From Piezodorus guildinii (Eukaryota; Arthropoda; Insecta; Hemiptera; Pentatomidae): a stretch of DNA of 64,000 bases. Below are positions 809 to 35,157 of this stretch, piece by piece. The position numbers and the translations under genes were made by a program. Location: NCBI GenBank assembly GCA_023052935.1, contig CM041294.1, forward strand, positions 82,384,974-82,448,973. The letters are read 5' to 3'. Position 1 is the stretch's first letter. The number at the start of each line of letters is the position of its first letter. The notes under the pieces were generated by a model that saw only the letters and a list, made by a program, of their open reading frames with translations, searched no databases and was not told the DNA's origin.

Positions 809-1443
809 AATGCTATATTTATATCTTGGACATAAATATATATTTAAAAATATTCCCATACAAATTACTTCAGGGAAGCTGGCTGCAAAGCTAGCCTCCG
901 ATGGCTGTTCCGAGCTCTCATATATTTCAACTTTATAGTCTCCACTAACGAATGTTGACAACCAAAAATATAAATATATATCCTTTTTTCATAAATCAAG
1001 ATATGCTATATTTTCAACAGTTTGAATCATTTTTTTTCCATGCCCTAGAAGGATATCTATTCGTTGTAAACTCTAAGACTCTCCTTAAACTAGTTTAGAA
1101 ATAAATCAAAATAAACTGTGTTGTCTTAATTCAATAATTATCTTATATCAATCTATTTGATCAGTAATTCCAAACATGTGGTCCGTACACCACCATCATT
1201 AGGAAAATAATTTTAAATGTACTTGACGTGAAATATTTGTGAAGCCTTGGGTTTTAATAAAAATCACACGCTCTGGTGTATGATGTGATGAAATTGCTAG
1301 TTATTTCTGGCAGGTGACTGTTAGTGTATAGTCACAATCTTAAAACTGGTCATTTTATAACATTTAGATAATATTGAGCTTAAAGGATAGGTGTAACTTC
1401 TTTGTATTTGAAAAAATACCTATCTTGTATAAGTTTTAAATTT
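809..1443. other. Unassigned AT-rich sequence
   Basis: No open frame, repeat or RNA feature recognised. Confidence 0.5.
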
Positions 1444-1454
1444 AAGTTTATTTT

Positions 1455-2009
1455 CACTTGGAACCCTCATACAAGACTGAAACGACAAGAAACTGCACGA
1501 CGTTTTCGACTACTTCAACACTTACTAGACAAACGTTCTAAACTTCTATTAAACTACAAAAGACTCATCTACATGACTATCATAAGGCCGATATGGTCTT
1601 ACAGAGTAGAGCTTTGGGGTCTACTAAACCATCGAATTTTTCCCGTATCCAATCCCTACAATCCAAAATCCTTCGTGAAATCATCAATGCTCCTTACTTT
1701 GTCACGAATAAACTCATCCATAAAGACCTTAATGTTCCGTATGTTGCTGATTCGGCTTGATCTAGATACCATTCCATTCATGAATCTGTTCCCACCTTAA
1801 TCCTCTAGTTTCAATCCTTTCTTCCTCTTCAATTCCTGACAATCCTGCGAGACACAAGGAGATGGCCCCGAGACCTTCTAGTGTAGAATATTTTTAGAGT
1901 GCATCCATTGGGAAGCTTCTCTACATGTGTTTCATGAGCTTTTATATTTCATCCAAATTTACTTGTATTCCATTATACAGTTATAAATTCCAATAAATAA
2001 ATAAATAAA
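1455..2009 (+). mobile_element. 5'-truncated Jockey-type LINE tail (Jky-1 copy)
   Basis: The translated sequence matches the C-terminal RT region of the other Jky-1 copies in the window: an NPHTRLKRQETARR block, a LLDKRSKL block, an IRPIW block and the terminal RWPRDLL, all broken by frameshifts. The 3' end is AATAAATAAATAAA. An 11-bp TSD AAGTTTATTTT flanks it (1444-1454 and 2010-2020), so it inserted by target-primed reverse transcription as a 555-bp fragment. Non-functional. Confidence 0.9.
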
Positions 2010-2020
2010 AAGTTTATTTT

Positions 2021-2589
2021 GGTTTATTATTTTTAATAATAAACCTTTGTAATAGACCAAAAAAAAAAAAAAATTACCCCCTCTCTCTCGAAATTCGAGG
2101 GCATGCGTTTCAAGATACGTAGAACCCGAATAACGATTTAAAAAAAAAAAAGTTTGTCCGATGTCCGCGGCATTTCTCTGAAACTACTGGACCTACTTTT
2201 TTGAAATTCGCCACGAAAATACTAGGGTATGCAACGATGATCCTAACACTTAAGCGTTGAAATCAGCTAGTTATTTTTTTAAATGGTGGCCGATTAAAAG
2301 TTATTTTTATTCAATAACTCAGTTATTTTTGAAGATTGAAAAAAAGTGTTGGGTGTTTTTTTAACCAAAATAACGCAAATGGGCCATTATCAGCAAAACT
2401 TACAATCGGGTGCGTCTTTCTTGAAAATTTCAAAAGTTGAATTTTCGGTCCATTCTTTTCTTTTTTTGTGTCCCTATATATGAAATCTGATCTGATGCAG
2501 CACTCAGCAGAGCTTGATTGGGTGTAATAATAAAAATAATTAATTACATTATTAATTAATTAAAATAATTATTATTCCAGAAATCAGAA
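2021..2589. repeat. MR2-like interspersed repeat and AT-rich sequence
   Basis: 2150-2400 shares a CTACTGGA...TTTGAAATT...CACGAAAATAC block and a GGCCGATTAAAAGT...AACTCAGTT...TTAACCAAAAT block with 61800-61930 and 60385-60480. Family unknown, no coding capacity. Confidence 0.55.
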
Positions 2590-3480
2590 AGTGAGCTAAT
2601 GACGATCTAGTGGTGAGTCAATGATGAGTCGGTGAGCCAATGATTTTCGGAAAGATCACCCGAAGGTTTTTGAACGTCTAAAAGAGCTAAGACAGTCCTC
2701 GCCTCTTCCATTTGTTAAATATTTTAAAAAGTTCGCTTCTATTTGCGATCAGCAACCAATTGAGTACGATAAAGTGAGAACCAGAATATTTCTTAATACC
2801 AGAGCAGTAGGTTCAAAGGAAAAAAAAAAACATCCGTTTCATCATTGGTGCATCTGTGGGCTGCGCTAATGACGGGTACGTCAATGACGCATGAAGGTTT
2901 TCCAAAAGGTTTTCTCTCCAAAAAAAAGTATCAAAATAAAGAAGTACATCAGTCTACTGAGTAAGCTGAACCCTATCACGGAAAAATAGAAAATTAGTCA
3001 ATTAAAAATAACTAGCAGAGGTAGAATGGGTGCGACAATGACGGACAATAAAAATACTCTCACTCACTAGCGTACGTCTTCCCTCCCTGCCACCGTGAAA
3101 GACACAGAAGGCGGTTATAAATCTCTTGGTCGGCTTGCCGAAAGTGTAACGGCTTTTGCGAGCCTTTTCCCGCCTCTTTATGGCTTGAAGGGAGATCACG
3201 GCGCCAAAAACCGTTTGGGGTGCGCCAATGACGCAAAATCCCTTGGACATTTCAATTTTATTTATTTGAAACGGATATAACCGTTTTCTGAACCTGTAAT
3301 TCTGTATTCTGAAACTATAGAGTGTATGTATGAACGCAATGGACCAATCCAGTAAATTCTTTCCAGCACCTTGACTGGGTACCACGTTGAAGTTGGCAAA
3401 CTCTGATTTGGACAGGGTGAGCCAATGATTTTTCGGACATTTATTCAAAATTTTCATAGAGGATTGATTCATTTATTTGA
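2590..3480. other. Block with a recurring GTGMGCCAATGAYG motif
   Basis: Variants of GTGAGCCAATGACG occur near 2591, 2613, 2632, 2862, 2878, 3031, 3221 and 3417, and once inverted near 2840. A 156-codon minus frame (3002-3472) and a 61-codon plus frame overlap here, but neither shows a family I recognise. The block is slightly more GC-rich than its surroundings. Possibly a decayed transposon or minisatellite. Confidence 0.4.
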
Positions 3481-3599
3481 GCTTATGAATGTGCGACAAG
3501 TTGAGCAGAAAAATGTCTAACAGAAAAGAAAACAAAACTTGGAAAACAACCAGTTTCATTACGAGGGAAATCATTTGGACAGCGTTTGTACGTTTCGTT

Positions 3600-3696
3600 G
3601 AGAATGACCCAAATAATAATAAAAAAAAGTGATAAAAAAGAAAAGAATTTTTTTTTTAATTTTACCAATAAATACGCCCATAACCCAGTTATTTTT
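3600..3696. repeat. MR2 repeat, left part, interrupted by a Jockey insertion
   Basis: Contains AATTTTACCAATAAATACGCCCATAACCCAGTTATTTTT. The matching right part resumes at 4761 after the insertion. Confidence 0.6.
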
Positions 3697-4760
3697 TTTT
3701 AATTTATTTTTTTTTTTTAAATTTATTTATAGTAATTTACAACTGTACTAAAGAATACAATAAGTAAATATGTAGAATGAACATAAAAAGTCATGAAAAT
3801 GTCTTGAGAAAGAACCACCCAGTGGTAGCACTTCACTAACTATTTTAATACAGTAGGTCCCGAGGCCACCTTCTTTTCAGTCGCCTTGGAGGGTTATCAG
3901 GGATATCTGAGGAAGATAAATTACGGAAAAGTGGGTTTGTATGTGCAGGGAGTTTAGAATGGAAAGAGGAGTATCTATCACGGGCTATGTCTGCAACAAA
4001 TGGGATGATTAGGTCATTATGGAGGATTTGATTTATGACAAAATAAGGAGCATTCAGGATTTTGCAAAGGATTTTGGATTGTAAGGACTGGATGCGGGAG
4101 GAATTAGATGGTTTCGTAGAGCCCCAAAGCTCGATTCCATATGTCCAAATAGGTCTGATAATTGTGATGTAGATGAGTCTTTTGTAATGTACTGGAAGTT
4201 TTGAGCGTTTGTCTAGTAAGTGTTGTAGTAATCGATATCTTCGAGCAGTTTCTTGTCGTTTCAGTCTTGTGTGAGGATTCCAAGTAAAGCGCTTGTTAAG
4301 ATGGAGACCTGGGTATCGGATTTGTTCTACAGAAGTAAGGGAAATGTTATTAAAGGATACTGGGGGGCAGGAAGTCATCGGTTTGCGACGAAGGGTAAAG
4401 GTGATTTGGTGGGATTTGTTGGGATTTATTTTAATCCTCCAATTTTGACACCATTCTTCAATGGCTTTGATGTGGGACTGAAGGGTTTGGGATGCAGTAG
4501 TTGGATCATTATGGACTGATAAGACACACGTGTCATCAGCATAAGTATTGAGGACAGTGCGAGGATGGAGTGGAATGTCAGCTGTATAAAGGGAGTAGAG
4601 GATAGGACCTAAGATACTACCTTGAGGCACTCCAGCAGATAGGGAAAATGTGGATGAGTAGGAAAAGTTGTGGTTTACCTTAAAGGTTCTGTCAGTAAGG
4701 TAGGAACGCATTAATAGGAAATATGTAGGGGCGAGGAATTGACGGAGTTTGTAAAGCAGT
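3697..4760 (-). mobile_element. 5'-truncated Jockey LINE (Jky-1), 1064 bp, with 13-bp TSD
   Basis: The minus strand carries a 288-codon open frame (3845-4711) covering the distal RT domain. It shows SAGVPQGSILGP (RT motif with PQGS), NTYADDTCVLS (catalytic YADD), the thumb-like NPHTRLKRQETARRYRLLQ block and the terminal RRLKRRWPRDLLY. Endonuclease, ORF1 and the first half of RT are missing. The 3' UTR ends in A/T tail sequence at 3697-3725. The TSD CCCAGTTATTTTT is at 3684-3696 and 4761-4773. Close identity to the 39-kb copy indicates a recently active family. It cannot move on its own. Confidence 0.93.
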
Positions 4761-34330: not shown

Positions 34331-34346
34331 TAGACGTGTCAGCTTC

Positions 34347-34559
34347 GGGATCAATTGGTAGCAGGGAGGCTAGCAGAACAGCCTCCTATGCCAAAGGTCA
34401 CGAGTTCAAACCCGATGGTGGTCCTAGGATTTTTTAATGAGAGTAAAAAATTGTTAGTTATGCTGTCCTTCGTAGGGGACGTTAAAAGGTGGTCCCGAGC
34501 CTGTGCGATGTCAGGTAGTCGCTGAAACTAAAGATCCCTATCCTAATTAAACCTGGATA
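34347..34559 (+). mobile_element. SINE-A, left part of an interrupted full-length copy
   Basis: GGGATCAATTGGTAGCAGGGAGGC head, B box GAGTTCAAACCC, body to CCTAATTAAACCTGGATA. It resumes at 35062. Confidence 0.93.
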
Positions 34560-34655
34560 CACACAACAACACAACTAGTTCAACCAGGATTTTCTCACTC
34601 GAAAGTGTTTTGTCCATTCGGTTGATGTGCGATCTTTTAAGGACTGGGGCATAAC

Positions 34656-34940
34656 CTACGCACTGGCTTCCTCCTCCGAAGAGGAATCCAACCCCGACCC
34701 ACACGTCTTGTGACCGGGCAGTGCAAGCACTCCCGGCCACCACCCAATGATGGTCCTGGCTAGGGACCATCCCCGTGGTACCATTTTGAAATTATGATAT
34801 CTTAAGGCCCGAATGGTCACGTGCCTCGAGACTGCAAATTTCTCGCAGCCTCTACGGTTTACCAGGATACAAATTGACGGGAGGATGCCCGCCAGTTTGT
34901 ATACTGGAGGGTGCTCCGTACCAAACAAATAAGCCTCCAT
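34656..34940 (-). CDS. Small ORF of the ribozyme-headed element
   Basis: 94 codons starting at the ATG that lies in the P2 3' strand of the ribozyme fold (34940-34938), ending in TAG at 34658-34656. An upstream non-ATG extension begins at 34952. N-terminus MEAYLFGTEHPPVYKLAG; a tryptophan-rich centre (PRGWSLARTIIGWWPG) and an acidic C-terminus (DSSSEEEASA). No catalytic motif. It may be the N-terminus of an ORF1-like protein of the parent LINE, cut by the internal deletion. I do not recognise the family; it may not be translated. Confidence 0.4.
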   Translation of the reverse strand: MEAYLFGTEHPPVYKLAGILPSICILVNRRGCEKFAVSRHVTIRALRYHNFKMVPRGWSLARTIIGWWPGVLALPGHKTCGSGLDSSSEEEASA

Positions 34941-35061
34941 CGTTAGCCGCACAATGTTCGTTACCAGCTCTCACGGCGGGGACGTGATGGTAGGCACTTG
35001 GGTATCACAAGGTATCCCCCTCCACATAATGGAGTTGGTTCTTGTGAGCCCTTTGAGAGCC
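34933..35061 (-). ncRNA. HDV-like self-cleaving ribozyme (predicted)
   Basis: Minus-strand pairing: P1 GGCTCTC (35061-35055) with GAGAGCT (34972-34966), 7 bp with the conserved G-U wobble at the cleavage site. P2 GCCTACCATC (34995-34986, one A bulge) with GATGGAGGC (34941-34933). P3 ACG (34985-34983) with CGT (34975-34973). L3 TCCCCGC (34982-34976), nearly identical to HDV L3 (UCCUCGC). P1.1 GG (34965-34964) with L3 CC. J4/2 CTAA with candidate catalytic C at 34946. J1/2 holds its own extended stem TCACAAG/CTTGTGA enclosing CTCCA/TGGAG, as in R2-type ribozymes. P4 is short or poorly formed. The predicted cleavage point coincides with the element's first base. Confidence 0.8.
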
Positions 35062-35157
35062 ATTAAACCTGGATAGGCAAAATTTAGGACTCTCTCTGAA
35101 GCATCGTCCGATTAGCCTCAGTAGCATAAAGTGACGTTAAATAAATAAACAAACAAA
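35062..35157 (+). mobile_element. SINE-A 3' end, right part of the interrupted copy
   Basis: Resumes with the duplicated ATTAAACCTGGATA, then GGCAAAATTTAGGACTC...GCATCGTCCGATTAGCC...GTGACGTTAAATAAATAAACAAAC. Confidence 0.93.

Follow-up and report, generated by a model that had tools for sequence, protein, structure and literature searches.

A short dispersed element of Piezodorus guildinii that joins a predicted HDV-like ribozyme to an R1-type 3' UTR

Here, we provide evidence that a short element in a stretch of 64,000 nucleotides from Piezodorus guildinii (the window) is very probably a SIDE (Short Internally Deleted Element) mobilised by R1, in which a predicted HDV-like ribozyme is joined to an R1-type 3' UTR and which would be copied by the R1 protein into R1-like sites. 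This reading builds on what can be read in the DNA itself, namely the fusion, the exact 5' ends of most 5'-intact copies, the target site duplications (TSDs), the ribozyme layouts of R1 LINEs and the R1-like targets. What is new is the predicted ribozyme layout on R1 at the 28S site, together with a SIDE that would use it and is dispersed outside rDNA.

The whole element is 502 bp long (34560..35061, minus strand) and is bounded by the exact 14-bp TSD TATCCAGGTTTAAT, with its 5' copy at 35062..35075 and its 3' copy at 34546..34559 (minus strand), in agreement with the TSD-flanked insertion from 35061 to 34560 that a preliminary description of this DNA had proposed. Positions within the element are given as 35062 minus the window coordinate. 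At the 3' end of the element lies a GTTGTGTTGTTGTGTG tail (34560..34575, minus strand); LINE tails with (GTT)n occur in three loci of the genome (L081, L077 and L091). The empty site is preserved elsewhere on the window's contig, where the host repeat is uninterrupted (L076), and when the two window flanks are joined with a single TSD, they align to this repeat across the junction with 168 of 202 columns identical.

Three similarity searches of the genome (G000; 1.2 Gb in 434 contigs, seven large ones of which hold most of the sequence) together yielded at least 48 whole or partial copies, a lower bound, two of the searches having scored the best 40 of 80 and the best 40 of 47 candidates. The expectation that genomic copies begin at the base corresponding to 35061 held for most of the 30 best among 41 matches, with 24 starting at base 1, two at base 2 and four being 5'-truncated. 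A TSD of at least 11 bp ends at the 5' junction in 20 of the 26 copies with an intact 5' end, a clean junction TSD being absent from the other six, and an exact flanking repeat of at least 11 bp was present in 34 of the 39 copies inspected. Such TSDs and 5'-truncated copies are what target-primed reverse transcription leaves. One copy (L009) has 16 extra bases between TSD and G1 and another (L011) has five, and these may be read as resembling what untemplated or template-jump additions leave. An older subfamily, represented by L062 (C5:9590737) and L063 (C1:69776230), has ribozymes at 85% and 91% and a diverged body, which suggests a long-lived family. No Pfam domain was found in the element's 98-aa open reading frame (the other one listed has 75 aa), and this searched frame does not provide the EN-RT coding of an R1. 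The claim that the element is a non-autonomous LINE derivative whose HDV-like ribozyme defines its 5' end finds support in copies, TSDs and LINE relatives alike.

The first 131 nt of the element take up an HDV-like layout with a predicted cut at the insertion boundary. From P1 to the end of P2 the predicted ribozyme covers 34933..35061 (minus strand, as for all coordinates of this paragraph), with the cut predicted between 35062 and 35061, and it is recognised by its structure, a covariance-model match and R1 LINE homologues. P1 comprises 7 bp between GGCTCTC (35055..35061) and GAGAGCT (34966..34972, with compensatory changes relative to R1 LINEs) and has G.U as its first pair, at the predicted cut. 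P2 is formed by GCCT(A)CCATC (34986..34995, bulged A at 34991) and GATGGAGGC (34933..34941), and P3 (ACG/CGT) together with L3 TCCCCGC occupies 34973..34985. The GG proposed for P1.1 follows directly 3' of the P1 3' strand (34964..34965). P4 (CGAAC ATT GTGCG, 34948..34960) has one A.G mismatch here, where the consensus is CGCAC/GTGCG, and apart from this mismatch the window copy offers the complete HDV-like double-pseudoknot layout of P1, P2, P3, P1.1 and P4 with the cut 5' of P1. J4/2 reads GCTAAC (34942..34947, predicted catalytic C at 34946), a hexamer that is also found in the R1-type LINEs L081, L085 and L086. The consensus of HDV ribozymes has an L3 that begins with TCC and a C in J4/2; TCCCCGC and GCTAAC are present in most copies, and TCC and CTAAC in the R1 relatives. 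Finally, J1/2 contains a peripheral domain (35000..35051), apparent from structure and copy comparison, with a 10-bp P1.2 helix (GGG/CCC and TCACAAG/CTTGTGA) and an inner 6-bp hairpin. The preliminary description had named P1, a bulged P2, a 3-bp P3, L3 TCCCCGC, GG, CTAA in J4/2 and a further paired extension in J1/2, and each of these parts is in place.

In large HDV-like ribozymes with P1.2 and an extended P2, this domain has an activating effect (PMC4908430), and the J1/2 of the element fits this pattern; its P1.2 helix might act as the 'pinch' domain of such ribozymes. The mosquito Agam-2 type likewise combines a long J1/2 with a P1.2 helix and an extended P2, but differs in sequence and host, and its activity was measured, whereas the ribozyme of the element is predicted (PMC4908430).

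It is very improbable, in our judgement, that the HDV-like layout is a chance match and that the sharp 5' end stems from something else, even if the lack of an Rfam match, the sparse covariation among copies and the background of descriptor matches speak for it. Rfam HDV models, the check that the preliminary description had suggested for the minus strand, did not detect the window copy up to E 10, plausibly because of its long J1/2, and the diverged copy L063 yielded a sub-threshold HDV-F-prausnitzii match (21.2 bits at a cutoff of 44, E 2.5). A covariance model of the element copies matches the window at 34931-35061 (minus strand) and, having been built from these copies, is not independent of them. 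The minimum-energy nested fold, from a method that cannot draw pseudoknots, lacks P1 and has no unusual stability (z -1.24). There is little covariation among the short copies, with one double-change pair and a score of 0.046 versus 0.041 in shuffles in a shallow alignment (29 aligned of 35 ribozyme matches), as expected at the mean column identity of 92% among these 29 copies. A descriptor without P4, which was written after the element had been seen, gave 10 matches in 60 simulated windows (0.17 per window). In the window itself, however, the only match of this descriptor on either strand falls exactly at 35061 on the minus strand, at the TSD boundary where the cut had been predicted. A stricter descriptor with P4 matched 16 of the 30 copies, each time at the 5' end, without any further match in these loci (in element orientation), and in 60 simulated windows it matched once; the window copy escapes it because of the A.G mismatch in P4. 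Genome-wide, a ribozyme-core pattern had 36 matches, 34 in the element family (several copies twice) and two of chance-like appearance. Moreover, R1-type LINEs begin with the same layout, bearing compensatory changes, and in one of them it sits at the exact 28S junction, which also speaks against chance.

At this junction (L086), 28S rRNA ends in TGTCCCTACCTACT and is followed at once by GGCCCGTAAAGG with P1, P3, a GCCT(A) P2 and GCTAAC. The same 14 bases recur 6.3 kb downstream on the same strand (L090), where 28S resumes, with an RT frame in between, and L086 to L090 is likely one full R1. Homologous HDV-like 5' ends are present in L081 and, among seven additional stretches retrieved in search of R1 5' ends, in L084, L085 and L086; no ribozyme match was found in the other four of the seven (L083, L087, L088 and L089). 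P1, the GCCT(A) P2, the ACG/CGT P3 and CTAAC are common to L081, L084, L085 and L086. The R1 ribozymes have an extra hairpin in L3, which the short element lacks. As the R1 helices were placed by hand so as to pair, part of the pairing within each sequence is built in, and swapping strands between R1 and SIDE serves as the control. P1 pairs at 7 of 7 positions in the five sequences compared versus 3-6 of 7 after swapping, P1.2 (three sequences) at 6 of 6 versus 2-4 of 6; the P1 of L063 has only 6 of 7 pairs. P2b has all 5 pairs in four of the five sequences and 3 of 5 in L086 (inner P2), and two of twelve swaps also reach 5 of 5, while P4 swaps are non-discriminating (4, 4, 2 and 5 of 5). The covariation expected in P1, P2 and P3 is nearly absent among the short copies and appears in the comparison of SIDE and R1-type ribozymes, with these hand-placed helices, as compensatory changes in P1 and P1.2 and partly in P2.

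In similarity searches, the SIDE ribozyme matched L086 with E 2.7e-5 and 7e-5 and L081 with E 5e-4. These values bear on the hypothesis of an R2/R1 hybrid SIDE as in Drosophila, in which R2 supplied the ribozyme and R1 no more than the 3' end. Such an architecture with 14-bp TSDs has been published (PMC3414825), and the rDNA studied here is interrupted at or close to the R2 site (L092-L094), but the SIDE ribozyme had nothing significant in the approximately 350 nt after these three R2-site sequences, presumed to be R2 (best E 0.55), and the R1-type LINEs here carry the HDV-like layout themselves; we regard an R2 origin as unlikely. Under the preferred reading of an R1-derived SIDE, the two ends might still have separate histories. 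Because the ribozyme looks nearer to L086 and the 3' UTR nearer to L081 and L077, and because L090, the probable 3' end of the L086 LINE, is only 69% identical to the 3' UTR of the element over 101 nt, the element may be an R1/R1 hybrid with ends from different R1 lineages.

The R1-type 3' UTR makes up element bases 137-499 (34563..34925, minus strand). It is 81% identical to a LINE 3' UTR in L081 (298 of 367 columns) and 78% identical to that in L077; the LINE 3' UTRs were reached by a search with the older subfamily copy L062. In L081, the end of ORF2 with its Cys-His motif is followed after about 36 bases by the shared 3' UTR and then by the (GTT)n tail. The element accordingly has both ends of a LINE, a 3' end of R1 type and a 5' ribozyme like those of R1-type LINEs, and is devoid of the coding region; the exact parent, or a LINE 3' UTR more than 81% identical to the element, was not found among those compared. 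A partner of RTE type had been suggested, but it is R1-type LINEs of the 28S cluster that have the shared 3' UTR and the homologous ribozymes; a 3' end common to R1-type LINEs likewise does not mark an RTE-derived SINE. A classical pol III SINE with an RTE-like tail, the ribozyme-like fold being mere decoration, would also be short, dispersed and TSD-flanked, and a B-box-like GGTTGGATTCC is discernible by eye at element bases 369-379. This stretch, however, lies inside the R1-type 3' UTR and has the counterpart GGTTGCATCCC in the LINE, ARAGORN found no tRNA in the window, and the head of the element has the ribozyme layout, all of which speaks against a tRNA-derived SINE; we regard the pol III SINE as highly improbable. 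R1-type 3' UTR copies without a matching ribozyme were also seen outside the rDNA cluster (L076, L078 and L079), one of them (L076) flanked, by eye, by TAGAGGGTCTCC.

The partner LINEs were assigned to R1 by their 28S site and by RT similarity, and this assignment should be read as sequence-based. An RT query from a related LINE (L080, continuing in L077) gave 19 matches of at least 45% identity among the best 125 of 39951 candidates, and 17 of these are located at C2:188.42-188.66 Mb, at the contig end. This stretch contains 28S rDNA: eight of 11 matches to a 28S query of 78 nt ending at the R1 site lie at C2:188.54-188.66 Mb, and the Rfam LSU rRNA model RF02543 matches L086 with E 4.9e-14. 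The tail of a related LINE (L091) runs straight into TGTCCCTACCTACTATCTAGCGAAACC, the downstream side of 28S. LINE copies in L081 are arranged in tandem with TGTCCCTACCTTCT between them. A 2.4-kb run of N in this locus leaves the rDNA only partly readable. In Drosophila, R1 inserts 60 bp downstream of the R2 site with 14-bp TSDs, and tandem R1s are parted by the 14-bp target (PMC3414825); the tandem order in L081 corresponds to that of these Drosophila copies. A 14-bp TSD at the R1 site of 28S is seen on the 5' side in L086 and on the 3' side in L090, presumably one insertion, and at the 3' junction in L091. In a protein search (7994 candidates scored), the closest of 781 matches was 43% identical over the RT, and the name R1 was absent among the 120 matches listed.

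The insertion sites of the short element resemble the 28S R1 site without coinciding with it. The 14-mers beside G1 in 20 clean copies (19 distinct) match the R1 target TGTCCCTACCTACT, which is present in the 28S sequence here, at 120 of 266 positions. Shuffled sites reached 70.5 +/- 6.8 matches, with none of 20000 shuffles as high, and shuffled targets were as high in 9 of 20000. For all 26 copies (25 distinct sites) the count was 150 of 350 against 92.8 +/- 7.7, again with 0 of 20000 site shuffles and with 10 of 20000 target shuffles as high; the six copies without a clean TSD matched at 10, 2, 3, 7, 4 and 4 of 14 positions. Since microhomology with the tail might supply matches at the first positions, these were dropped, and the signal of the clean set persisted when three or four of them were left out (0 of 5000 in either case) and also with five removed (4 of 5000). 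In three cases the same flanking site occurs in separate copies, i.e., TGTACCGATGAACA (L010 and L026), TGTCCACTCTATCA (L016 and L029) and TGTCCATTCAGTAAA (L067 and L073).

An alternative hypothesis places the helper outside rDNA, in a dispersed R1-group lineage that has its own relaxed TGTCC preference, instead of among the 28S R1 elements, the mechanism being otherwise the same. None of the at least 48 copies listed lies in C2:188.4-188.66 Mb (in an assembly that may lack part of the rDNA), RT relatives occur outside rDNA, e.g., at C4:168453871 (62%) and C3:168331152 (46%), and no rDNA LINE 3' UTR compared exceeds 81% identity to the element. On the other hand, the element inserts at sequences similar to the R1 site of 28S, and the closest 3' UTRs and ribozymes found sit in the rDNA cluster. 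We consider a dispersed helper a possible but doubtful source of the machinery.

It is tempting to propose, and in our view somewhat probable, that the R1s here excise themselves from 28S transcripts by their own ribozyme and have spawned a promoterless mini-element outside rDNA, which R1 pastes into degenerate targets. A 2012 Drosophila study mentions a suggestion that R1 has a promoter of its own (PMC3414825). For the short element we infer a read-through transcript that cuts itself at G1 and whose 3' UTR is recognised by the R1 protein, followed by target-primed reverse transcription. Briefly, the element would be transcribed from an outside promoter, and the predicted ribozyme would then cut the transcript so that its 5' end is base 1. 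The 3' UTR could be recognised by the R1 protein in trans, and reverse transcription might be primed at degenerate look-alike sites outside rDNA that an R1-type endonuclease has cut. If the R1s indeed spawned this element, its insertion sites would be a natural record of R1 endonuclease specificity. Should cleavage be confirmed, a LINE parasite could spread without any promoter of its own, and the insertions would be an in vivo readout of how loosely the R1 endonuclease picks its targets.

HDV-like ribozymes on LINEs are known. Work by Ruminski in 2011 reportedly placed them on R6 and SART, LINEs of the R1 group. HDV-like ribozymes are also described at the 5' ends of R4, Dong, baggins, L1Tc and RTE (PMC3774820). 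All of these LINEs have the ribozyme at the 5' end and a cut at the 5' junction, as predicted here, but they are autonomous, and R1 at the 28S site is named in neither list; a published ribozyme on R1 itself was not found in the open-licence literature searched. The view that compact ribozyme-bearing SINE-like elements are less known than LINE ribozymes can be upheld only in part, as precedents exist in the R2 and R2/R1 SIDEs of Drosophila and in NARTc/RIME of trypanosomatids (PMC3414825, PMC4035085). The nearest precedent is the R2/R1 hybrid SIDEs of Drosophila, which have an R2 ribozyme with demonstrated self-cleavage and insertions at the 28S R1 site (PMC3414825). They share with the element an HDV-like ribozyme combined with an R1 3' end, 14-bp TSDs and the supposed use of the R1 machinery, whereas the element has a ribozyme resembling those on R1-type LINEs, and its copies, as far as found, are scattered over R1-like sites outside rDNA. 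The R2 SIDE of Drosophila willistoni also combines the 5' ribozyme and 3' end of one LINE around an internal deletion, but derives from R2 instead of R1 and resides in rDNA (PMC3414825). NARTc and RIME of trypanosomes differ in LINE clade and host, and their Pr77 is also a promoter (PMC4035085). The Lepidoptera pair of the Persaeus SIDE and the Zenon CR1 is comparable as an internally deleted, dispersed LINE derivative; its partner, however, is a CR1, and the word ribozyme is absent from the main text of that source (PMC6740152). In the sources cited, ribozyme-headed SIDEs were thus described inside rDNA (R2 and R2/R1 hybrids) and in trypanosomes, and the short R1 derivative presented here was found outside rDNA.

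Several further insertions were seen in and around the rDNA. In L084 (C2:188533350-188534150), by eye, an R1-type 5' end with ribozyme follows a part of 28S other than the R1 site, possibly another rDNA target. In L083 (C2:188558650-188559400), 28S extends to a variant R1 site and is followed by a different insertion without evident ribozyme (5' TATGAATAG). L092, L093 and L094 leave 28S at or just past the R2 site and are presumed to be R2 5' ends.

Two sets of candidate LINE partners were rejected. The eight 3'-only loci L067-L074 appear to be 5'-truncated, with a flanking repeat of at least 11 bp in seven of the eight and of 9 bp in L070; L029, whose flanks were read, is also 3'-only. In the window, positions 34345-34470 look by eye like a tRNA-derived SINE with box-like motifs; the ARAGORN search of the window without a tRNA covers them as well. 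L061 (C3:11520118-11523236) was initially taken for an autonomous LINE sharing both element ends and proved to be a copy of the element that is interrupted at about element bases 150-166 by a 5'-truncated fragment of another two-ORF LINE. Two longer copies of the nested LINE (L065 and L066) had no match to the element. In the larger stretch fetched for this locus (C3:11519000-11524500), the nested EN-RT LINE occupies positions 1289-3886 and duplicates approximately those same element bases.
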